Shown here in pieces: positions 3,344 through 17,951 of a stretch of DNA of 26,260 nucleotides (position 1 is its first letter; every line of letters begins with the position of its first letter). The translations under genes were made by a program, and so were the position numbers. Source of the stretch: a virus; IMG/VR virus record IMGVR_UViG_3300048591_001280, positions 1 through 26,260 of that record. One strand, 5' to 3'. The notes under the pieces were generated by a model. The model did no database searches. It was not told the DNA's origin and was given only the letters and a program-made list of their open reading frames with translations.

Positions 3344-3715
3344 ATGGCCTTCCCCGCATTGGTCTACGAATTCCCCGCGGCCGCGCCCTTGCGTGCGGCC
3401 CGGGACCGCCGCCGGCGGCAGTCACGGCGCGGCGAAACCACACCCGCGGGCCATGCGCTGACGCCGCGGCAACGGGAAGTGTGCGACCTGGTCAGCGCGG
3501 CCTGGGCGAACAAGGAAATCGCGGTGGCCCTGGGGCTTAGCGAGCAGACGGTGAAGAACTACCTGCGCGGCGCGTTCGAAAAGCTTGGGGTGACGACGCG
3601 GCTGGAACTGATGCGCTACTGGCTGCAGCACGGCCGCGAACACGGCGCCGCCAGCACGGAAGTAACCGGCGCCGCCAGCACCGCAACAACCGGCGTGGAA
3701 AGGCGGGCCGCATGA
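3344..3715 (+). CDS. LuxR/GerE-type helix-turn-helix regulator (123 aa)
   Basis: Residues 39-97 form a LuxR-type DNA-binding domain: LTPRQREVCDLVSAAW, then NKEIAVALGLSEQTVKNYLR and GAFEKLGVTTRLELMRY. There is no receiver or ligand-binding domain, only a basic N-terminal tail (about 35 residues) and an Ala/Thr-rich C-terminus with a repeated GAAST segment. It starts immediately after the nuclease stop (TAG-ATG) and overlaps the next gene by ATGA, so it is expressed with the early operon. Free-standing LuxR domains in phages usually act as transcription regulators; its target sites may be among the intergenic boxes described here (inference). Confidence 0.85.
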   Translation: MAFPALVYEFPAAAPLRAARDRRRRQSRRGETTPAGHALTPRQREVCDLVSAAWANKEIAVALGLSEQTVKNYLRGAFEKLGVTTRLELMRYWLQHGREHGAASTEVTGAASTATTGVERRAA

Positions 3716-4975: not shown

Positions 4976-5680
4976 GTGGCATTGAAAACAAAAGACTTAG
5001 CGGCGATGAGCAAGGACGATCTGCTGGCCCTGGTGGGTGCCCTGGCGGGCCAGTTGGGTTCCGCTGACGCTTCGCATGGCGCGGGGTCCCCTAGTGTTCC
5101 GCCCGCCCGCGGACGCCGAAATTCGCCGGGCCGTGTCCAGTTCCTGACGGCCGAGGAACTGACGGCGCTATTCGCGGCGGTCCACGCGGCGGGCAGCGAG
5201 CGCGATATGGCGCTGTTCGAAGTGGCGTACCATCGCGGCCTGCGGGCCAGCGAAGTGGGCCTGCTGAAGATCGGGCATCTGCGCCTGGCGCAGCGGCGGC
5301 TGTACGTTACCCGGCTGAAGAAATCGAAAAGCGGCGAATATCCGCTGACGGAACGCGAGGTGAAGGCGCTGCGCGCCTGGATGCGCAAGCGCGGCCAGGT
5401 GGCGGGCCCGCTATTTCTTTCGCGCAACCGGAAGCCTATCAGCCGCCGGCGCCTGGACCAGCTGATGAAGCACTACGGCGCCGCCGCGGGGCTGCCCGAC
5501 GCGAAGCGCCACTTCCATTGCCTGCGGCACACCTGCGCGACGCAGCTGGTGGAGCGCGAGGTGGATATTCTGCTGGTGGCCGATCACCTGGGCCACTGCG
5601 ACATCCGGAACACGCAGGTCTACGCCAAGGTGAGCGATCGCAGGCGGCAGCAACTGGCCGAACGTCTGCAGGATTTCTGA
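4976..5680 (+). CDS. Minimal tyrosine recombinase/integrase (234 aa)
   Basis: The catalytic domain is complete: R90 (GLRASEV), a beta-hairpin lysine near K118, H181-x2-R184-H185 (HCLRH), H207 (LGHCD) and the nucleophile Y216 (TQVYAKV). It cuts and rejoins DNA at specific sites through a 3'-phosphotyrosine intermediate. It is short for the family: only about 55 residues, partly disordered, precede the catalytic domain, so the usual SAM-like core-binding domain seems to be missing. The GTG start has GGAAGGA seven bases upstream. It lies alone between a terminator and tandem repeats, with a large inverted repeat just upstream. Phage integration is the likely role; dimer resolution is the alternative. 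Confidence 0.88.
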   Translation: MALKTKDLAAMSKDDLLALVGALAGQLGSADASHGAGSPSVPPARGRRNSPGRVQFLTAEELTALFAAVHAAGSERDMALFEVAYHRGLRASEVGLLKIGHLRLAQRRLYVTRLKKSKSGEYPLTEREVKALRAWMRKRGQVAGPLFLSRNRKPISRRRLDQLMKHYGAAAGLPDAKRHFHCLRHTCATQLVEREVDILLVADHLGHCDIRNTQVYAKVSDRRRQQLAERLQDF

Positions 5681-5775: not shown

Positions 5776-6327
5776 ATGAGTACGCGAGTCGTACGGATCC
5801 CGCGAAGTGCTACCACGCGGACCGCAAGTGGCTATGCCAAGCTGCTCACACACGTAGAACCGACTGCTAGAACCGGATTCGATTTTCAGGGGACGCTGAT
5901 CCCGACAGGTGCGTTAGTGATGGAGGACGATTTATGGCCGACGCCGGCCCATCCGCGGCCCGCGCTGTTGTTGGAGCACGTGGGCCATCCCAAGCCCTCC
6001 CGCGGACACAACCGTAACGACCAGGGCGACGTGTGGGTGCTATGGCGCTACCGGCCGGGCGCCGGCGCGTGGGAAGAGATGGCGAGGTGCTGCATGGTGG
6101 GTGATTCCTGGGCCATGCACCTGGCGCCCTTGGCGGCGGCCGCGCTGGCCGAGGCCCGCGGACCGCAGCCGCTGATCGATACGGCCGCCGTGCAGGACCG
6201 GATCGCCCGGTTCCTGGATACCGAGCTACGCGGACTGAATCCCCAGCAAACCGAATGCGTCCTGGCCGCGGTCCACGATCAGCTGGCATCCCGAATCTGC
6301 GGCGCCTTTGTGCAGCGGGCTGCGTAG
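5776..6327 (+). CDS. Hypothetical protein (183 aa)
   Basis: Unrecognised. The start at 5776 has no Shine-Dalgarno match and lies about five bases downstream of the expected transcription start, so translation may be close to leaderless. Residues 60-110 are rich in Trp, His, Arg and Gly (PSRGHNRNDQGDVWVLWRY), and the C-terminal half is helical (QDRIARFLDTELRGLNPQQ). No membrane segment or catalytic motif is visible. It stands alone between the integrase and the iteron region and is probably under its own promoter. Confidence 0.65.
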   Translation: MSTRVVRIPRSATTRTASGYAKLLTHVEPTARTGFDFQGTLIPTGALVMEDDLWPTPAHPRPALLLEHVGHPKPSRGHNRNDQGDVWVLWRYRPGAGAWEEMARCCMVGDSWAMHLAPLAAAALAEARGPQPLIDTAAVQDRIARFLDTELRGLNPQQTECVLAAVHDQLASRICGAFVQRAA

Positions 6328-6364
6328 CGTCCGCCGGCCTTGTGGGCGGGTGGGCGTTCTTCGA

Positions 6365-6534
6365 AGAAAGGTACATACACACTTACTGTTGAACAACGGA
6401 TATTCCTTCTTCTCCAGATATAAGGAGCGCCCGCCCAAATAGGAACACTGGGGTGATGGAGAATGCGCCACTGGGGTGTGGGGATTCCTGCGGGATACCA
6501 ACACTGGAGTGTGGGTATCGGTACTTTCGTAACC
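6365..6534. other. Candidate replication origin: AT-rich stretch plus iterons
   Basis: This 254-bp intergenic gap (6328-6581) starts with an AT-rich stretch (about 6370-6422, near 37% GC by hand count, against roughly two thirds GC around it). Three copies of a palindromic decamer follow: CACTGGGGTG (6446-6455), CACTGGGGTG (6469-6478) and CACTGGAGTG (6502-6511), offset by 23 and 33 bp. A GGTAC box (6520-6533) comes next. Further copies lie at 7130, 7785 and 7839, before and inside the replication gene. An unwinding element beside iterons is the standard layout of an iteron-type origin. Confidence 0.55.
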
Positions 6535-6543
6535 ACGCAAGAC

Positions 6544-6571
6544 TTGCGCTTCGATATTCGCTTCGCATATT
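6544..6571 (+). promoter_or_regulatory. Weak promoter candidate with a 12-13-bp tandem repeat
   Basis: TTGCGC (6544-6549) and CATATT (6566-6571) are separated by 16 bp. The segment between them holds near-repeats CGCTTCGATATTC and CGCTTCGCATATTC, the latter including TGCGAAGCG on the minus strand (6559-6567). The expected transcription start falls on the AGGAG of the next gene, so either the leader is extremely short or this is an operator rather than the promoter. Confidence 0.35.
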
Positions 6572-6581
6572 CTCAGGAGCA

Positions 6582-6824
6582 ATGGCGAAATCGAAGCAGC
6601 CGCCCGCAAAGGCGCTGAGCGAGAATCCGGCGCAGCTTTCCGCAGCCCGGGCTCTGCGCCAGGGCAACAGCCCGGCGGCGACATCGGCCGCGAAGCTGCT
6701 AGGCTCGCGCGGCGGCAAAGCCCGCGTCGCTCGCCAATCCGCCGCCGAAAGATCCGCCAGCGCCCGCAACGCCGCCCAGGTTCGCTGGCAAAACGCCCAC
6801 CAGCGGGAGGCCTCCCGCGGATGA
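6582..6824 (+). CDS. Small basic Ala-rich protein with AER-RW motif (80 aa)
   Basis: The ATG at 6582 is chosen for AGGAG three bases upstream; a longer frame from 6453 would translate the iterons. The protein is basic and Ala/Ser-rich: GSRGGKARVARQSAAERSAS, then ARNAAQVRWQNAHQ. This is the same layout as the 1080-1406 protein. It lies directly after the candidate origin, so DNA binding there is an appealing but untested idea. Confidence 0.6.
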   Translation: MAKSKQPPAKALSENPAQLSAARALRQGNSPAATSAAKLLGSRGGKARVARQSAAERSASARNAAQVRWQNAHQREASRG

Positions 6825-7159
6825 CAACCCTTCCCCTCCCCAACACGGCCGCCTGCTCGGCCCAAAAAGTTGACCGTAGTATGTATTATCGGCGCTTGAT
6901 AACAGCGCCAACGGTGACGGTAGGGGTTCGATCGGGTTTCTTCGCGGGGCGCTCGCTTCCGCCCTCATATTCAAAGTTTCGGGATTGGCTTGGGCCGCCA
7001 GGCGGGTGCGAAGGGGCGTTGTCCCCGGTGCACTCGGCTGCGCGCGTTCCTGCTATCGACCACGCGCAGCCTTGTGCCAAGGTTGCGTGAACCTTCCTTA
7101 TTTTCCCGCACCTTGGCCTTCTTTGTTCCCACTGAAGTGAAACAAACGAGGTCAGCCCA
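6825..7159. other. 335-bp gap upstream of the replication gene
   Basis: No convincing gene is seen; an open frame at 6821-7090 has no family features. The gap holds a perfect inverted repeat GGCGCT (6891-6896)/AGCGCC (6904-6909) with a 7-base centre in an AT-richer patch, and an iteron-like CACTGAAGTG (7130-7139) about 20 bases before the replication gene start. It is probably the promoter and operator region of that gene, though I cannot pick a clear -35/-10 pair. Confidence 0.4.
7130..7139. promoter_or_regulatory. Iteron-like site before the replication gene
   Basis: CACTGAAGTG has the CACT-N2-AGTG dyad of the iterons at 6446-6511 and 7785-7848. It lies about 20 bases upstream of the GTG at 7160, just ahead of the ribosome-binding site (GAGG). 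Binding of the initiator here would repress its own gene, as many initiators do. Confidence 0.45.
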
Positions 7160-8572
7160 GTGTCAGCAGCCGCATACGCCGCGCCCGCCGCCAGGCGCCA
7201 GCCACGATCCGAAGGACAAGCCCAGGCTCCCATGCCCGCGTGGGTCCAGCGCGGGGGCTGGACGCCCGTGCCCAACAGCTTCTTTACGCACGTGATGCGT
7301 GCGTGCAGCCAGTTTGAACAGGCCATCCTGTCGCTGATTTTGTTCCGGACCGCGGGCGACGCCCAGGGCGGCCGGCCGGAATGGGTGCAACTGTCTGAGC
7401 AGCAACTGGCACGGTTCCTGGATGGCCATCCGAACGGGATCAGCAAGGCGATCGGGCGCCTCGAGGAGATGGGCGCGATCGAATCGCGCAAGGTGGGCCG
7501 GGCCAAGCAGTACCGGGCTATCGTCGAGGCGTGGGACAAGCTGACGCCGCGGAAGCCGCGCAAGGTGGAACCGAAGCGCGTGGAAGAGCCGGAGGAGGAC
7601 GCCGGCGCCGAACTGCGCGATGAGGAAGCGGTGGCCGCGCTGAAGATGGCCGCGGCGCCGAAGGAAGTCCTGGTTATCCTGCCCGGCCAGAAGAAGCCGC
7701 GGCCGCTGGCGGAAACGTGTCCCGGCGGCGCCAACTGCGAGCTAGTCCGGCGGTACGCAGCGAAAGAAGAGCGAACGACCACCACACCCGAGTGTGGGGA
7801 TTCTGGCGAAATAGCGAATACAGGGCGAACGACCACCACACTGGAGTGGCGGAATGCTTCGCCTGCTGTTCCCTCTGATGCCGCTGCCGATCGAAACCCG
7901 CCGCCCACGCTGCTGGATCCGGAATTCAGCGCGTTCTACGACCTGATCGATTCCCTGCTCTCCACGCGTCTGCTGCAGCCGCCGCCCCTGGCGATCCTGG
8001 AAACCCAGTTCGAACGCCTGAAGGCGCACGATGTCCCGCTGGACTACGTGGAAGCGCGGGTGAAGCTGCGGATCAACGCCTTCCGTAGCTACGGGCTGCT
8101 GGAGCACGTGGTTACGGACTGCATCAAGGCGGTGGACGCCGCGCGTGCGAACGATCAACGCGCCACGAACCGGGGTGGCGGGGCGGCGCCGGATGCCGCG
8201 GCCATCTACAAGCACCTACACGCCTGTGCGGACACGCTGAAACTGCAGCCGCTGGATGCGGGCTATGAGGACGTGCGCGAACTGGTGCTGCAGGCCGCCG
8301 AAGACGCGCCGCGCCACGCCGCGGACCTGGTGCACCTGGAACTGCACCTGGCAAACGCAGAGGCGATGATGCGCAACCTGGCCGAGGACGCGCTAAGTCC
8401 GGAAGAGCGTTCGGCGATCGAAGGCGATGTGGAGCGGCAGGTACGTCCGTACCGGGACCGGATGAGCCACGAACAGTTTTCCAGCCTGCGCGCGGAGATC
8501 TACCTGCGCCGGCTGTTTGAGCATGCGCGTTTGCCGCGACTCAGCCTCTTCTATGCGGAGGGCGCGGCCTGA
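7160..8572 (+). CDS. Phage replication initiator, lambda-O-like layout with winged-helix N-terminus (470 aa)
   Basis: Residues about 30-125 are a winged-helix domain of the phage replication-protein type: WTPVPNSFFTHVM, LSEQQLARFLDGHPNGISKAIGRLEEMGAI and a wing ending YRAIVEAW. A charged linker follows (130-240), then a helical C-terminal domain (about 250-470; DPEFSAFYDLIDSLL). The linker coding sequence holds two iterons and repeats the peptide RTTTT 18 codons apart. In lambda O the origin iterons also lie in the gene between the DNA-binding and helicase-recruiting domains. The GTG start has GAGG upstream. No replicative helicase or loader is recognised nearby, so host helicase is probably recruited. 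Confidence 0.72.
   Translation: MSAAAYAAPAARRQPRSEGQAQAPMPAWVQRGGWTPVPNSFFTHVMRACSQFEQAILSLILFRTAGDAQGGRPEWVQLSEQQLARFLDGHPNGISKAIGRLEEMGAIESRKVGRAKQYRAIVEAWDKLTPRKPRKVEPKRVEEPEEDAGAELRDEEAVAALKMAAAPKEVLVILPGQKKPRPLAETCPGGANCELVRRYAAKEERTTTTPECGDSGEIANTGRTTTTLEWRNASPAVPSDAAADRNPPPTLLDPEFSAFYDLIDSLLSTRLLQPPPLAILETQFERLKAHDVPLDYVEARVKLRINAFRSYGLLEHVVTDCIKAVDAARANDQRATNRGGGAAPDAAAIYKHLHACADTLKLQPLDAGYEDVRELVLQAAEDAPRHAADLVHLELHLANAEAMMRNLAEDALSPEERSAIEGDVERQVRPYRDRMSHEQFSSLRAEIYLRRLFEHARLPRLSLFYAEGAA
7771..7850. repeat. Intragenic iterons inside the replication gene
   Basis: A 17-bp direct repeat (GCGAACGACCACCACAC) occurs at 7771-7787 and 7825-7841, exactly 54 bp apart. Each copy leads into the palindromic decamer: CACCCGAGTG (7785-7794, part of the perfect dyad CCACAC-N4-GTGTGG at 7783-7798) and CACTGGAGTG (7839-7848). 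They match the decamers upstream of the gene and were not found elsewhere in the window by eye. Confidence 0.65.
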
Positions 8573-10572: not shown

Positions 10573-10790
10573 TCGGCGGATGGTTCGAAGACGATCCCTT
10601 CGATGAACGGGTTTGCCGGGTGTGCGGCTGCGATGACATGCACGCGTGCGTCAGCGATGCTGGCGTGGCCTGCCACTGGGTGGAGGATGACCTGTGCAGC
10701 GCATGCGCGGACGCTGGCCACAGCGGCCTGGTGCAGGTTTACAGCGAGGCGCAGGCCTCCGCGTATTTGCGGGCCCGGGAGGTGCGCTGA
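10569..10790 (+). CDS. Cysteine-rich zinc-binding small protein (73 aa)
   Basis: Seven cysteines in a tight pattern: C16, C19, C21, C27, C35, C43 and C46 (CRVCGC, AC, ACHWVEDDLCSAC). This pattern with the WVE-DLCS core recurs in small proteins of phages of high-GC bacteria, usually annotated only as zinc-finger-like. Likely one or two zinc sites; function unknown. GTG start overlaps the previous stop, and the gene ends in TGATG with the J-domain gene. Confidence 0.7.
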   Translation: MIGGWFEDDPFDERVCRVCGCDDMHACVSDAGVACHWVEDDLCSACADAGHSGLVQVYSEAQASAYLRAREVR

Positions 10791-11425
10791 TGGCGCTGAA
10801 CGCGCGGTTTGTGCCGATTGTCAGCTGGCCTGGCGCCGGGACGCCGCCGGCGCGGCGGGAGCGGTCGCGGTTCAAGTCAACCTACGCGAAGACGCTGGCG
10901 CTGCTTGAGCGGGAACTGGGGCGGATCCAGGCGAGCCACGTCCTGATCCAGGCGTGGTTTCGGGCGGACCAGATCCGGAACGATGGCTGGCCGTACGCGC
11001 GGGCGACGCCGCGGGATGTGGGCGTGATCCTGACCTTCACGCGGGGCGGCCAGGTGGTATCGATGCCGTGCGATCGCTTCGACAGCTTCGATGACAACCT
11101 GCGGGCGATCGGGCTTTCGCTGGAAGCGCTGCGGATGGTGGATCGCTACGGGGTGACGCGCAACGGGGAGCAATACCGGGGCTTCACTTCCCTGCCCTCG
11201 GCGGCGCCGGCGGCCGAGGACCTGGAAAGCGATCTGGAACTGCTCGCGCGCCTTAGCGGGCTGACGGAAGGCGAACTGCGCCGGCAATTCGATGCGTTGC
11301 GCACGGCCTACACGGTGGCTGCGCGGAAGACGCATCCGGACCATGGTGGATCCAACGAATCGTTTGGCCGGGCGCACCGGGCGTACAAGCGGGTGGCCAA
11401 GGCGTGCCACGGGAGGGACGTATAG
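10790..11425 (+). CDS. J-domain (DnaJ-like) protein (211 aa)
   Basis: The C-terminal 55 residues form a J domain: helix II (LRRQFDALRTAYTVAARKTH), the invariant HPD (H182-P183-D184) and helix III (SFGRAHRAYKRVAK). J domains stimulate the ATPase of Hsp70/DnaK. The N-terminal 150 residues are not DnaJ-like: a basic helical start, a central beta segment (VGVILTFTRGGQVVSMPCD) and a short acidic linker. No Gly/Phe or zinc region is present, so this is a type III J protein with a phage-specific adaptor. The TGATG overlap with the zinc protein gene implies co-translation. In lambda, DnaJ acts on the O-P-helicase complex at the origin; a phage-encoded J protein could serve the same step here. Confidence 0.85.
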   Translation: MALNARFVPIVSWPGAGTPPARRERSRFKSTYAKTLALLERELGRIQASHVLIQAWFRADQIRNDGWPYARATPRDVGVILTFTRGGQVVSMPCDRFDSFDDNLRAIGLSLEALRMVDRYGVTRNGEQYRGFTSLPSAAPAAEDLESDLELLARLSGLTEGELRRQFDALRTAYTVAARKTHPDHGGSNESFGRAHRAYKRVAKACHGRDV

Positions 11426-11427
11426 CG

Positions 11428-11784
11428 ATGGCGGCGTGCAGCGTGCCGATTGAGGAGTTTTCGCTGGAGCGCGACCGGTACGGCGCCTGTGTGGGCGTGT
11501 GTCCGAACGGCGCGGTGTGGCTGGCCTGTTTTTCGTGGGACGCGGATGACGGCGTGGGCGCGGAGGGTCCGGTGGTGGCGCATCCGGACCGCGCGCAGGC
11601 GATCTGCGGCGGCGTGCGCGCGCTGCTGGAAAGCCTGGACGCGGCGGACCCGTTGCGGCGTAATCCGGCCGTGACGGGCGTGGCGCGGCAGCGGATGACA
11701 AAGATCCGCGTGTGGGCTGAGGAACTGCGGGCAAAGCACCGGCCGGTGGCCGTGGCGGTGCCGTTGTTTGGGGAGGGCGCATGA
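11428..11784 (+). CDS. Hypothetical protein (118 aa)
   Basis: The ATG at 11428 is chosen for GGGAGGGA ten bases upstream, although a GTG at 11404 is in frame. Cysteines cluster near the start (AACSV, GACVGVCPNG, LACF). The C-terminus is helical and basic. Not recognised. It overlaps the methyltransferase gene by ATGA, so the two are made together; an accessory role to that enzyme is possible but unsupported. Confidence 0.6.
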   Translation: MAACSVPIEEFSLERDRYGACVGVCPNGAVWLACFSWDADDGVGAEGPVVAHPDRAQAICGGVRALLESLDAADPLRRNPAVTGVARQRMTKIRVWAEELRAKHRPVAVAVPLFGEGA

Positions 11785-12713
11785 TCCACGTGGGCAACGC
11801 GCTGCGGCATCTGCGGCGCTTGGATAGCGAAAGCGTGCATTGCGTGGTGACCAGCCCGCCGTATTGGGGGCTGCGCGATTACGGCGTGCGCGGGCAGATC
11901 GGGCTGGAACGGACACCCAGCGCTTACGTGGCCCGCCTGGTCGCGGTCTTCCGCGAGGTACATCGGGTTCTGCGCGCGGACGGAACTTTGTGGCTAAACC
12001 TGGGCGACACCTACGCGAGCGGCGGACGGTCCGAGTACGATCCGGATCCGAAACTTCCCGAGCGTGGAGGCAGGCATCGCAAGCGATCGACGGCGGAAGG
12101 CAGCCTCAAACCCAAAGACCTTGTGGGTATCCCGTGGCTGGTCGCATTCGCGCTGCGCGCCGATGGGTGGTGGCTGCGGCAGGACCTGGTCTGGGCGAAG
12201 ACGAATTCGATGCCCGAAAGCGTGCGGGATCGCTGCACGCGATCCCACGAGTACTTGTTTCTTCTGAGCAAGAGCGCCCGTTACTACTACGATGCGGACG
12301 CGATTGCGGAACCGGTGGCAGCGGACACGGCTGCACGTTACGAACGTGGGCGGGGGAACGCGCACAAGTATGCGGACGGCGGGCCAGGCGGGCAGACGAT
12401 TCGGCAGTCCTACCAGCGGATGCAGCCAGCGACCGCAATTCGCCTGGTACGGAACCGCCGATCCGTGTGGCGCCTGGCGACGGAACCGAACAGGCTGGCG
12501 CATTTCGCAGCGTTCCCGCAGGCGCTGGTTCGGCCCTGCATCCTGGCCGGGTGCCCGCCCGGCGGCGTGGTGCTGGATCCGTTTGCGGGCGCCGGGACGG
12601 TGTGGCTGGTGGCGCAAGAATTGGGGCGTCAGTTCGTGGGGATCGAACTGAATCCGGAGTACGCGCGGATCGCGCGGCAGCGCGTAGAAACCGCGCGGGA
12701 AAGGGCAGCATGA
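11781..12713 (+). CDS. Beta-class DNA methyltransferase, SPPY type (310 aa)
   Basis: The catalytic motif IV is TSPPYWGLRDYG (S25-P26-P27-Y28) near the N-terminus, and the SAM-binding motif I, DPFAGAGT, is near residue 268, followed by GIELNPEY. That order (IV before I) marks the beta class of the N4/N6 methylase family, which transfers methyl from SAM to exocyclic amines of cytosine or adenine. SPPY is commoner in m4C enzymes but also occurs in m6A ones. A disordered insert with many basic residues (about 75-100) may belong to target recognition. No restriction enzyme gene adjoins, so this is a solitary phage methylase. Confidence 0.9.
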   Translation: MIHVGNALRHLRRLDSESVHCVVTSPPYWGLRDYGVRGQIGLERTPSAYVARLVAVFREVHRVLRADGTLWLNLGDTYASGGRSEYDPDPKLPERGGRHRKRSTAEGSLKPKDLVGIPWLVAFALRADGWWLRQDLVWAKTNSMPESVRDRCTRSHEYLFLLSKSARYYYDADAIAEPVAADTAARYERGRGNAHKYADGGPGGQTIRQSYQRMQPATAIRLVRNRRSVWRLATEPNRLAHFAAFPQALVRPCILAGCPPGGVVLDPFAGAGTVWLVAQELGRQFVGIELNPEYARIARQRVETARERAA

Positions 12714-13476: not shown

Positions 13477-14397
13477 ATGCGACGGCTGACGCAGAGGATC
13501 TCGTGGCGCGGGGTTGGGGTGTGGTTTTTGCAGGTCGCTACCGGTACGCTCTTGGCCGCCCTGTTCCTTTACTTCACCAGTGCGAGGGCGGCGGATTGGT
13601 TCGCTGCGATCGCTGCGATCGCCAGCGCTTGGGCGGCATTCCTGGCGTGGCGGACGTCGGAGCGTGGAGCGGCCTCGGCTGAGCAAAGCCTGGATGCCGC
13701 CCGAACAAGCGCAGAGGCCACGCTGCGCAGCGCAGAAGCGGCCGCAGACGCGGTTAAGCTGCAAGCCCTGCTGGAAGCCCGCGAGCACAAGCGCTACATG
13801 CTTGCATTGGAGCCACGCCTTGAATACCGGTGTACGACGGAATGGTCAGATTCCAGCGGCAGGAACGACGTAGTTTTCGTGGCGGACTTGCGCGGCCCGG
13901 AGGACGCGTGCCTGCATTCAGCGAAGTGGCGCGCGTGGGCAGCGCCGCTACCAGGGGGGCAGCCAGCGCCAGTCGCACATGGCCGATTTGAGGAATGCTC
14001 CGGCGGACCGTGGCAACGGCGTAAACCGAAACGACTCAACCTGGGGACGATTCTCGATAAAGCGTTTGCCGTTCGGTCGACGCGGCCTTACCGGCCTGAT
14101 GTGCCCACGGCGGTGTGCATTGAGATCCTGATGCGGATCCAGTTCCACGAAGACGCGCCGGAGTTCGATCGAGCGCTGTACCTGATCTGCCGCAGAGAGG
14201 GCGAATCGTGGTACCTCGGCTTCTTTGACAAGACCAAGGTTGTCGACGCGCTGTTGGAGACCAGCTTCCAACAGTTCGGCAGGATGGCTGAGCCGCACGA
14301 AGACGGCCTTAGCAACTTGATCGGCGTGCTCGGCGGAAAGGGCTATGGAATCATCCAGGACGCTGAAGATTCACGCCGCCCGGACGCCGCGCAGTAG
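13477..14397 (+). CDS. Two-TM protein with coiled coil and C-terminal soluble domain (306 aa), possible moron
   Basis: Residues 13-34 and 40-58 are two membrane helices (VWFLQVATGTLLAALFLYF and DWFAAIAAIASAWAAFLAW). A coiled coil follows (65-108; AEQSLDAARTSAEATLRSAE). The rest is a soluble, beta-rich domain of about 190 residues with no motif I recognise. The gene has its own promoter directly after a terminator, probably leaderless, and its codons look less biased than those of its neighbours. It ends 27 bases inside the convergent repressor gene. A single-gene unit between operons with a membrane anchor is typical of lysogeny-expressed morons such as superinfection exclusion or defence genes; this is inference. 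Confidence 0.75.
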   Translation: MRRLTQRISWRGVGVWFLQVATGTLLAALFLYFTSARAADWFAAIAAIASAWAAFLAWRTSERGAASAEQSLDAARTSAEATLRSAEAAADAVKLQALLEAREHKRYMLALEPRLEYRCTTEWSDSSGRNDVVFVADLRGPEDACLHSAKWRAWAAPLPGGQPAPVAHGRFEECSGGPWQRRKPKRLNLGTILDKAFAVRSTRPYRPDVPTAVCIEILMRIQFHEDAPEFDRALYLICRREGESWYLGFFDKTKVVDALLETSFQQFGRMAEPHEDGLSNLIGVLGGKGYGIIQDAEDSRRPDAAQ

Positions 14398-14826
14398 CGC
14401 GTATTCATCCTCCAGAATCCGTTCGATGGACGTGGCGCACAGGCCGAAGCGGGCGGCCAGGTGCGTGGTGCCGGCGCCGCGGGCGTGGAGGGTCTGGATG
14501 CACTGGCCCAGGCGGTGGGGTTCATGGGGCGCCAGGGGCGTGTGGCAGATGGCGCAGCGTTCGATGACGGCGGCGCCGCCCACCAGGTACAGATCGTGGG
14601 CGTGGTGGGGATCGTGCTCCACGCCCAGCAGATAATCGGGCGTGACGGCGAAGTGCTCGCAGAGGCGAAGCAGGGTGGTCAGCAGCACGTCGGGGCTGAA
14701 ACCCGATTCCAGCGTATGCAGGGTGGAACCGGCGATGCCTGTTTCACGCGACAACGCGCGCAGGGACAGGTGGTGCAGGTGCCGGAGGGCTACCATCCGG
14801 CGGGGAAGAATGGACTTCAGGTGCAT
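14371..14826 (-). CDS. XRE-family repressor-like protein with extra zinc/HTH half (151 aa)
   Basis: Residues 12-68 form a Cro/CI-type helix-turn-helix: MVALRHLHHLSLRALSRETG, then GSTLHTLESG and CEHFAVTPDYLLG. Residues 91-109 contain C-x2-C ... C (CAICHTPL, QC), a likely partial zinc site, and residues 112-138 (ARGAGTTHLAARFGLCATSIERIL) resemble a second helix-turn-helix. The ATG at 14826 is used; a TTG five codons upstream is possible. It is the only minus-strand gene in the right part and diverges from the sigma factor gene, with palindromes between, as expected of a lysogeny repressor. There is no LexA-like peptidase domain, so induction would not be by self-cleavage. Confidence 0.82.
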   Translation of the reverse strand: MHLKSILPRRMVALRHLHHLSLRALSRETGIAGSTLHTLESGFSPDVLLTTLLRLCEHFAVTPDYLLGVEHDPHHAHDLYLVGGAAVIERCAICHTPLAPHEPHRLGQCIQTLHARGAGTTHLAARFGLCATSIERILEDEYALLRGVRAA

Positions 14827-14875
14827 AGGCGGTCGCAACAAACTTCGTGTGCCGTCTCATGTTCGGTAAGGCGGA

Positions 14876-14913
14876 GCGCCGTTCGGCGCGGGATATCAGA
14901 GACGCGGATCCGC
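14876..14913. promoter_or_regulatory. Palindromes in the repressor/sigma-factor divergent region
   Basis: GCGCCG (14876-14881) and CGGCGC (14884-14889) make a perfect 14-bp palindrome with a TT centre; GCGGATCCGC (14904-14913) is a second perfect 10-bp one. Both lie in the 128-bp gap between the divergent repressor (start 14826) and sigma factor (start 14955) genes. They are natural candidates for repressor operators, although high GC makes short palindromes common. Confidence 0.4.
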
Positions 14914-14954
14914 AATCCTGCGCAAGTACTCTGTGCTTGGGATTGGGCATCAGC

Positions 14955-15578
14955 ATGACTCTAAGTGTACGTGGATCAGTGACCTGCGCCAAGAAACCGG
15001 AAGTGTTGCAGGAACGCGATGCGGTGGTGATGGCGCATCTGGACCTGGTGAAGCCGCTGGCGGCGGCGCTGGCGCGGCGGCTGCCGCCCTGCTTCGATGC
15101 GGACGATCTGGCGCAGGCGGGCATGGTGGCGCTGATTGAGGCGGCCGGGAAGGCCGCGGCTTTGGAGGGCGATCACCGGCGGCTGTATTTGAAGTGCCGG
15201 ATCCGCGGGGCGATGCTGGACGCTGTGAAGCGCGGCGCGTACCGCGAGGCAACGCACGAAGCGCTGCTGCCGGAAGTGGATGCGGTGGCGACGGAGGCCT
15301 CGCCGGAAGCGCTGGCCGCGGACGCGGAACTGGCCGCCATGGTGACGGCCGCGCGGGCGAAGCTAACAGCGCGGCAGCAGCAGGTGATCCGGCACCGGTT
15401 CCATGGCGAACTGACGCAGCGGGAAACGGGGCTGCAGCTGGGCGGGATCCGGCAGCCATCGGTGATGCAGCACGAACGGCGGGCGCTGGAACGGCTGCGG
15501 CAGCAGGTGGTGCAGATGCCGCGGCGGGCGCCGGCGGAACCGCACCGGGGGCCGTTGCGGGCGCCGCTGGCGGCGTAG
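14955..15578 (+). CDS. Sigma-70 family factor, FliA-like, regions 2 and 4 (207 aa)
   Basis: Region 2 spans residues 22-95: VVMAHLDLVKPLAAALARRL, DADDLAQAGMVALIEAA and the FliA/WhiG-like RIRGAMLDAVKR. Region 4 spans 122-185: AKLTARQQQVIRHRFHGELT followed by QRETGLQLGGIRQPSVMQHE. Region 3 is absent. Such factors direct host RNA polymerase to a special promoter set. It heads the rightward late region, divergent from the repressor, so it is probably the late-gene switch (inference). The ATG at 14955 is chosen as the best start; its ribosome-binding site is poor (GGGATTGGG). Confidence 0.85.
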   Translation: MTLSVRGSVTCAKKPEVLQERDAVVMAHLDLVKPLAAALARRLPPCFDADDLAQAGMVALIEAAGKAAALEGDHRRLYLKCRIRGAMLDAVKRGAYREATHEALLPEVDAVATEASPEALAADAELAAMVTAARAKLTARQQQVIRHRFHGELTQRETGLQLGGIRQPSVMQHERRALERLRQQVVQMPRRAPAEPHRGPLRAPLAA

Positions 15579-16628: not shown

Positions 16629-17951
16629 GTGGCTGGCATTCGAAATCAGGATTACGCGCTGGTGGGGATCGCGACGCTGCGGCCGCATCCGGCGAACCCA
16701 CGGCGCGGCGACGTGGGCGCGATCGCGCGCAGCGTGCAGGCGAACGGCTTCTACGGCGCCGTCGTGGCACAGCAGGGCACGGGCTACATTCTGGCGGGAA
16801 ACCACCGCTGGGAAGCGGCGCGGCGCGAAGGCCTGGCGCAGGTTCCGGTGCTGTGGGTGGAGTGTACGGACGAAGAAGCGCGGCGGATCCTGCTGGCGGA
16901 CAACCGCACGAACGACGTGGCGGGCTACGACGAAGAAAAGCTGGCGAAGCTGCTGGACGAACTGCGGGCCGGCGACGGCCTGGACGGCACGGGCTGGACG
17001 CCGGAGGCGTTCGACGCATTGGTTGCGGGGCTGGGTGATGCGGTGCTGGGCGGAAGCGGAAGCCTTACGAACGGCGACCAGAGTGGTACGGCAGTTGCTG
17101 GGGGGGGGACACATCCAGAGGAGACCGAAGATGCCCTCTCTGCGGTGGACCGGGCCGAGGAATTGCAGCAGAAGTGGCGGACTGAGCCTGGGCAGCTATG
17201 GCTGGTTCCGAGCGCGACACTCCCAGGCAGGGAGCATCGAATCCTCTGTGGCGACTCGACACGAGCGGAAGAAATTTCCCGGCTGCTGAACGGAAGCCAG
17301 CCGGTGCTGATGGCCACGGATCCGCCTTATGGCGTGAAGTACGACTCCAGCTGGCGCGCCGAGTACTCCTCTGGCGAGTACAGCGTTGGCGCAATCGCAA
17401 ACGACGATCGCGCGGATTGGACGGAGGTCTGGGAGCGTTGGGCCGCACCGGTGCTTTATGTGTGGCACGGCGGGCTGCACGCGGACGTTGTCTCGGCCAG
17501 CCTGAAGGCGGCGGGCTACGAAATCCGCAGCCAGATCATCTGGAACAAGGCCGTAATGGTTTTCGGCCGCGGCGCCTACCACTGGAAGCATGAGCCGTGC
17601 TGGTACGCCGTCAAGAAGGGCCGCAACGCGAACTGGCAAGGCGACCGCAAGCAGACCACAGTTTGGGACTGCGGAAACGGTAGCGGGGCCGGGCGCACCG
17701 GGGATGCGGCCGATGACTTTCACGCGGCACACATCAGCCAGAAACCGGTTGAGCTATTCCGCAGACCAATTTTGAACCACACCGAACGAGGCGACGTCGT
17801 GGCGGAGCCGTTCTCGGGATCCGGATCGCAACTGGTGGCCGCCGAGCAGCTTGGGCGCATTTGCCTCGCGATGGAGTTGGAGCCAAAGTTCGTGGCGGTG
17901 GCGTTGGAGCGGTTGGCGGCGCTTGGTTGCGAGCCGCGGCTGGCCGATTGA
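16629..17951 (+). CDS. ParB-domain/DNA methyltransferase fusion, DPPY type (440 aa)
   Basis: Residues 8-95 form a ParB/Srx-like domain (LRPHPANPRRGDVGAIARSV, AGNHRWEAARREG, ADNRTND). After a linker, residues 205-430 form a DNA methylase: CGDS (207-210), ATDPPYGVKYDS with D231-P-P-Y234, and SAM motif EPFSGSGS (393-400). DPPY indicates N6-adenine methylation. This ParB-methylase fusion is common in phages just before the terminase. A run of nine G (17100-17108) sits in the linker between the domains; a one-base slip would leave the ParB part and abolish the methylase. The GTG start directly follows the previous gene. The EPF for usual DPF in motif I is a minor variation. Confidence 0.9.
   Translation: MAGIRNQDYALVGIATLRPHPANPRRGDVGAIARSVQANGFYGAVVAQQGTGYILAGNHRWEAARREGLAQVPVLWVECTDEEARRILLADNRTNDVAGYDEEKLAKLLDELRAGDGLDGTGWTPEAFDALVAGLGDAVLGGSGSLTNGDQSGTAVAGGGTHPEETEDALSAVDRAEELQQKWRTEPGQLWLVPSATLPGREHRILCGDSTRAEEISRLLNGSQPVLMATDPPYGVKYDSSWRAEYSSGEYSVGAIANDDRADWTEVWERWAAPVLYVWHGGLHADVVSASLKAAGYEIRSQIIWNKAVMVFGRGAYHWKHEPCWYAVKKGRNANWQGDRKQTTVWDCGNGSGAGRTGDAADDFHAAHISQKPVELFRRPILNHTERGDVVAEPFSGSGSQLVAAEQLGRICLAMELEPKFVAVALERLAALGCEPRLAD
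17100..17108 (+). repeat. G9 homopolymer in the ParB-methyltransferase gene
   Basis: Nine consecutive G read as three Gly codons (A-V-A-G-G-G-T) in the interdomain linker at residues 158-160. It is the longest G run I see in the window; the others reach six. In-frame here, so the full protein is encoded. Confidence 0.85.

Follow-up and report, generated by a model that had tools for sequence, protein, structure and literature searches.

Replication origins that lie inside the gene for their own initiator are known from few models, and operator clusters are likewise established. The origin of phage lambda is located within the O gene, where inverted repeats bind O dimers and an AT-rich region adjoins them (PMC5043065). 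The origin of pSK41-type plasmids occupies a central position in rep, and replication does not require the part of the protein encoded there (PMC5703833). Here, we analyzed a 26.3-kb virus record from IMG/VR with a GC content of 67% (hereafter, the window), together with its relatives. Inverted repeats occur both in the linker-coding stretch of its replication gene, rep, and in a cluster upstream of the gene; in each phage, the two locations share a single site type, which changes in step between phages. The coordinates of the features are given in Table 1.

Table 1. Features of rep and its surroundings in the window, with the support for each
Feature	Position	Strand	Support or remark
Tyrosine recombinase (integrase), preceding the triad both here and in relatives	4976-5680	+	PF00589, 2.4e-37
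Conserved ORF of unknown function immediately before the triad	5776-6327	+	Shared with G004 and G006
Most AT-rich 60-mer of the window, beside the triad	6364-6423	.	65% AT (mean, 33%); melting element or promoter
Upstream triad site 1	6443-6458	.	Leave-one-out matrix
Upstream triad site 2, +23 bp	6466-6481	.	Leave-one-out matrix; G004 and G005 share this spacing
Upstream triad site 3, +33 bp, core of a 26-bp near-palindrome	6499-6514	.	+33 in G004, +34 in G005
80-aa basic ORF downstream of the triad	6582-6824	+	No Pfam match
Dif-like attP candidate between the triad and rep	6868-6897	+	Degenerate match to the G025 and G247 prophage junctions
CACTGAAGTG preceding rep, unlikely to be a site	7130-7139	.	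Leave-one-out matrix does not recover it
rep, O-like replication initiator, 470 aa	7160-8572	+	phrog_186 match, O-like PHROGs in homologues, hhalign, AlphaFold
Predicted disordered linker holding the in-gene sites, codons 202-251	7763-7912	+	pLDDT <50 over 202-251
Exact 17-bp direct repeat including the left arms of both in-gene sites	7771-7841	+	7771-7787 and 7825-7841
In-gene site 1, CCACACCCGAGTGTGG	7782-7797	.	Leave-one-out rank 1; best non-triad match of the triad-trained matrix
In-gene site 2, CCACACTGGAGTGGCG, 54 bp after site 1	7836-7851	.	Leave-one-out rank 1; second best with the triad-trained matrix
Cro/CI-type HTH protein, main rival binder	14371-14841	-	PF13443, 2.3e-9; no site copy nearby

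Profile comparisons supported the rep product as an O-like initiator whose DNA-binding domain is remotely related to that of lambda O. Residues 30-137 matched phrog_186, a DnaD-like helicase loader (2e-5), and the Rep homologues matched O-like initiator PHROGs (best, 2e-5). Comparison of a profile of five Rep homologues with six lambda O-type proteins in hhalign gave a probability of 91 and an E value of 1.1e-6, with the match confined to the winged helix (residues 30-125). Neither Pfam's own O model nor RepA_N matched Rep at an E value of 0.1. The preliminary description of this locus had called its sequence unrelated to that of lambda; this holds for the sites but not for the protein, given the kinship of the DNA-binding domain. 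The AlphaFold model of Rep, built on a five-sequence alignment (mean pLDDT, 64.5), comprised a predicted winged helix (about 39-127), a predicted disordered segment (202-251), and a helical C-terminal domain (254-456). In a Foldseek search of the PDB, this model retrieved generic winged helices alone, none at E <0.001, with weak listings among them of what we take to be a RepA N-terminal domain and a Rep-DNA structure. Against viral structure models, replication and HTH proteins were matched with poor global superposition. No helicase or helicase loader was recognized 3' of rep with Pfam among the small downstream ORFs.

The exact 17-bp sequence GCGAACGACCACCACAC is present at 7771-7787 and 7825-7841. 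The two copies are 54 bp, or 18 codons, apart and in frame within the 470-aa ORF, as described previously. Their reported placement between the DNA-binding N-terminus and the C-terminus also agreed with the model, in which the repeats (codons 204-231) fall inside the predicted disordered residues 202-251. Considered by themselves, the linker sites of the window do not stand out as palindromes (P of about 0.8 in a synonymous shuffle), and the case for them therefore rests on their repetition and on the relatives. The linker is 40% AT, and a strongly AT-rich block is absent from it.

The palindromic decamer CACTNNAGTG occurs exactly at 6502, 7130, and 7839 only in the whole window, and about 0.3% of simulated windows contained three exact copies by chance. 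Copies with one mismatch were found at 6446, 6469, and 7785, along with scattered ones at 426, 19836, and 23279. As for occurrence at chance frequency, the window-wide count at one mismatch (9 versus 5.6 expected, reached in 12% of shuffles) was not significant, whereas six such sites within 1.41 kb were seen in 0 of 300 simulated windows. A leave-one-out matrix search that included the flanks placed 6446, 6469, 6502, 7785, and 7839 above all other positions in 26 kb. The four palindromes initially listed upstream were thereby reduced to three, with one mismatch each at 6446 and 6469, as at the in-gene 7785; position 7130, which 239 positions outscored, was not recovered and was dropped. The sites reach about 16-26 bp, an example being GATACCaACACTggAGTGTgGGTATC at 6502.

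The remaining upstream copies had been regarded as extras, a view that was not borne out: they form a phased cluster that is conserved in four phages and lies beside AT-rich DNA. The upstream clusters are intergenic and, in the window, downstream of the integrase gene. The 60-mers adjoining the clusters rank in the top 0.1-0.8% for AT content in G004 and G005, and two AT-rich direct repeats directly precede the cluster in G006. The origin need not be solely in-gene, because the conserved upstream cluster adjoins the most AT-rich DNA of the window. This cluster resembles an operator cluster as much as an origin, and it may be a melting site or a promoter that Rep autoregulates. Scans detected no sigma-70 promoters or terminators in 6300-7200 and no DnaA boxes (TTWTNCACA) in the window, and Rfam and tRNA scans gave no matches. 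A change in GC skew near 8.4 kb, considered as origin evidence, did not recur at the rep genes of G004 and G005 and was set aside.

Direct sequence searches found no close Rep relatives among viral contigs or GenBank phages, and relatives were reached via the terminase and then searched with Rep. Further searches with the G005 and G247 queries added no new rep relatives, and the C-terminal half of the Rep profile gave weak matches across the class that were regarded as low-specificity. Palindromes were present in the linkers of 6/6 Rep proteins examined, and the homologous genes without repeats that the preliminary description had envisaged did not occur. The Rep of G002 (58% identical) has CCCACACTNNAGTGTGG twice in its linker, 66 bp apart, and the same locus was also found in a Bryobacterales MAG contig (JALOKO010000025.1, G025). 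One linker copy each was found in G004 (35% identical; CCACAGTGGACTGTGG), in the G247 prophage (34% identical; CCACAGTGGACAGTGG), and in G006, whose Rep is distant (ACTGCCGAACTCGGCAGT). G005, with a Rep that is 24% identical, has a different palindrome, TAGCGGGTCTGCAGACCCGGTA, with two linker copies 46 bp apart. No palindrome in the rep genes of G002, G004, G247, G005, and G006 is stronger than the one in the linker. G006 also has two tandem rep-like ORFs on the minus strand (L084:1453-1887 and 260-1648), of which the longer contains the linker and the site.

Clusters of the same palindrome lie upstream in 4/4 phages with a sequenced interval from integrase to rep, as triads with spacings of 23+33, 23+33, and 23+34 bp in three of them and as four sites in the fourth. 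When a matrix derived from the window and G002 was run over 12 kb around the G004 rep, the top four matches were the linker site and an intergenic triad (L144:4875/4898/4931), spaced 23+33 bp as in the window (6443/6466/6499). The 47.9-kb G005 contig contains exactly five copies of TAGCGGGTCTGCAGACCCGGTA (0, 0, 0, 2, and 3 mismatches; next best, 7), namely, an upstream triad at 13513, 13536, and 13570 (23+34 bp) and two in rep. In G006, an upstream group of four copies of the site CTGCC..GGCAG directly follows the homologue of ORF 5776-6327, and a fifth copy is in rep. The site type is thus phage-specific, with CCACACT in the window and CCACAGT, CGGGTCTG, or CTGCCGA elsewhere.

As a cross-check, a matrix was trained for each phage on the upstream cluster alone and run over the whole contig (26-67 kb), of which rep makes up about 2-5%. 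The rep-linker sites were the best matches outside the cluster in all four contigs, ranking first and second in the window, first in G004, and first and second in G005; in G006, the best non-training matches were the fourth cluster member, followed by the rep site. No convincing triads were found in G007, G009, G017, G018, G023, or G001, in which no rep homologue was found either. The missing cluster in G025 and G247 is uninformative because these prophage contigs end before the integrase side. The near relative G001 has, in the intergenic stretch that follows its tape-measure gene (L147:3530), the sequence GATCCCCACACTGCGGTGTGGGGATT, which resembles the site and is possibly a terminator hairpin.

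From these sequence comparisons and the analogy with lambda O, we infer, with somewhat more confidence than doubt, that Rep binds both clusters and that the linker is part of the origin. The winged helix of Rep would bind, probably as a dimer, the phage-specific inverted repeat (CCACACTNNAGTGTGG in the window), with two copies in the linker-coding stretch of rep and three in the AT-rich intergenic cluster downstream of the integrase. Like lambda O, Rep would assemble an initiation complex inside its own gene, on the linker copies, and binding at the upstream cluster would melt the adjoining AT-rich DNA or allow Rep to control an early promoter. Since the linker accepts nearly any peptide, the gene could carry these sites, and they could change along with Rep specificity.

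Co-variation by itself cannot identify the binder, because divergence of the repressor among the relatives runs alongside that of Rep (identities to the window in G002, G004, and G005 of 58, 35, and 24% for Rep and 78, 42, and 40% for the repressor). The sites could instead be operators of a phage regulator, either the Cro/CI-type HTH protein or the LuxR-type HTH protein (3344-3715), with a three-site operator by an early promoter and the rep sites serving to stop replication during lysogeny. A set of three palindromes spaced by 23 and 33 bp beside AT-rich, promoter-like DNA is indeed like phage operator clusters such as lambda OR, and the HTH protein is encoded in all relatives with rep (78% identity in G002; 39-46% in G004, G005, G247, and G006). 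Cro/CI-type repressors usually control their own promoter, yet neither the window nor four relatives have a copy of the site close to the HTH gene. The LuxR-type gene was located in G004 and G005, and none was found in G006. Two observations favor Rep. Sites within the rep gene itself are what all the phages share, and similarity of the sites tracks Rep identity better than repressor identity: the repressors of G004 and G005 are about equally distant from that of the window (42% and 40%), yet the sites are similar in G004 and unrelated in G005, where Rep identity is 35% and 24%, respectively. These arguments are indirect, and we consider control by a regulator, the main rival, rather unlikely.

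Within the preferred explanation, Rep could bind both site sets with the origin at the AT-rich upstream cluster, the linker sites serving to titrate Rep or to pair the clusters and so limit initiation. The conserved triad spacing is in keeping with this variant, as are the AT-rich DNA by the clusters in the window, G004, and G005 and the AT-rich repeats in G006. However, AT-richness fits a promoter too, in-gene sites occur in every homologue, and the known origins of lambda and pSK41 are in-gene (PMC5043065, PMC5703833). We assign the variant a low probability, which forms part of that given to Rep binding and is not additional to it.

The two linker copies of G005 are identical over about 27 bp, with identity ending near the palindrome edges. 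Their 46-bp spacing places them in different reading frames, which indicates conservation of DNA and not of peptide. In two pairwise comparisons, synonymous codons were conserved in 14/16 cases within the sites versus 285/519 elsewhere (Fisher P of 0.01). A TxECGD-like peptide does recur in the linkers of the window, G002, and G004, and the repeats might accordingly be a peptide feature (e.g., a conserved T-x-E-C-G-D motif) with the DNA palindrome as a by-product. This reading is highly improbable in view of the conserved synonymous sites and the two frames of G005, the presence of the same DNA in non-coding clusters, and the differing peptides of G005 and G006. Still less credible is a host dispersed element (REP or Rickettsia-type) that landed by chance in the linker: such palindromic elements are known in other bacteria and disordered linkers tolerate in-frame insertions, but among the class and order genomes searched, which do not include the window's own host, copies were few (two of CACACTNNAGTGTG in the 4.2 Mb of the Bryobacterales genome G025, each within rep; the 16-mer in 1/299 class genomes; the 26-mer with <=3 mismatches in 1/100 order genomes; the G005 palindrome in 2/299 class genomes, one copy each), and the 36 stretches matched in a 17-mer scan of 257 Gb were not above chance.

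The arrangement of the element bears on where the two site sets would lie after integration. The G025 and G247 prophages begin, by a host HAD-hydrolase gene and shortly before rep, with AGTTGACATAATATNTNTTATCGG, a sequence that we read as dif-like; these junctions are at L143:7767-7790 and L180:9548-9571 in two Bryobacterales genomes, and a similar sequence occurs once each in 12/41 genomes of the host order. Window positions 6868-6897 are likely attP because they hold a degenerate copy of this junction sequence, and the dif site of the host may be where these phages integrate. In the integrated state, the integrase and the upstream cluster would be at the opposite end from rep. In G005, a repressor/cro-like pair and a second integrase-like ORF, recognized from translations only, lie between the upstream cluster and rep (L205:15083-17387), as if another element had inserted there.

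Several neighboring genes were also noted. The HTH repressor gene is divergent from a gene for a protein with sigma-70 regions 2 and 4 (14371-15578 for the pair), and the pair is kept in G002/G025, G004, G005, G006, and G247. The LuxR-type gene encodes a short LuxR/GerE-type HTH protein and lies upstream of the integrase. A ParB N-terminal domain fused to an N6/N4 DNA methyltransferase is encoded at 16629-17951, and a second methyltransferase at 11781-12713. The product of 10784-11425 has a C-terminal J-domain-like stretch (PF00226; E value of 0.011, under Pfam's cut-off); lambda replication uses DnaJ.

More broadly, the locus may represent a two-part replication control in temperate Acidobacteriota phages, in which the DNA code of the initiator was replaced at least twice (CCACACT, CGGGTCTG, CTGCCGA) and both site sets were rewritten, a proposal for which we see the chances as evenly balanced. 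If true, it would provide natural matched initiator-site pairs. The site sequence is fully replaced, in coding and non-coding copies together, and the layout is kept in diverged relatives. We found no description of a conserved two-part layout with repeated wholesale site replacement in open-licence papers and no experimental work on Acidobacteriota phage replication in the open-licence literature. The relatives form a natural series for studying the joint change in specificity of an initiator and its sites and why the sites stay in the gene. They also raise the question of whether disordered linkers are favored because they can carry regulatory DNA, and they offer candidate replicons for Acidobacteriota.

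Compared with the described systems, the lambda-like initiator-origin unit of the preliminary description gained support from the O-like winged helix and from sites in the linker of every homologue examined, with differences in architecture. Rep and lambda O have related winged-helix N-terminal domains, and in both cases inverted-repeat sites lie in the initiator gene between the DNA-binding and C-terminal parts; the C-terminal domain was not matched. Lambda has four iterons at about 20-24 bp, whereas one or two sites are found here, 46-66 bp apart if two. The AT-rich block beside the in-gene iterons of lambda is absent from the linker here and adjoins the upstream cluster instead. This additional phased cluster and the unrelated site sequence further set the locus apart from lambda, and no counterpart of a lambda P-type loader was recognized with Pfam among the small downstream ORFs. 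The linker sites resemble the pSK41/RepA_N arrangement in that the origin there is central in rep; the review description of that system includes no upstream cluster of the same site, which is present here, and the RepA_N Pfam match is absent here. Like the upstream cluster, clusters of the lambda OR type have three palindromes, about two to three helical turns apart, next to AT-rich DNA. Unlike in those clusters, no sites lie near the repressor gene here, and in every relative they are found inside rep.
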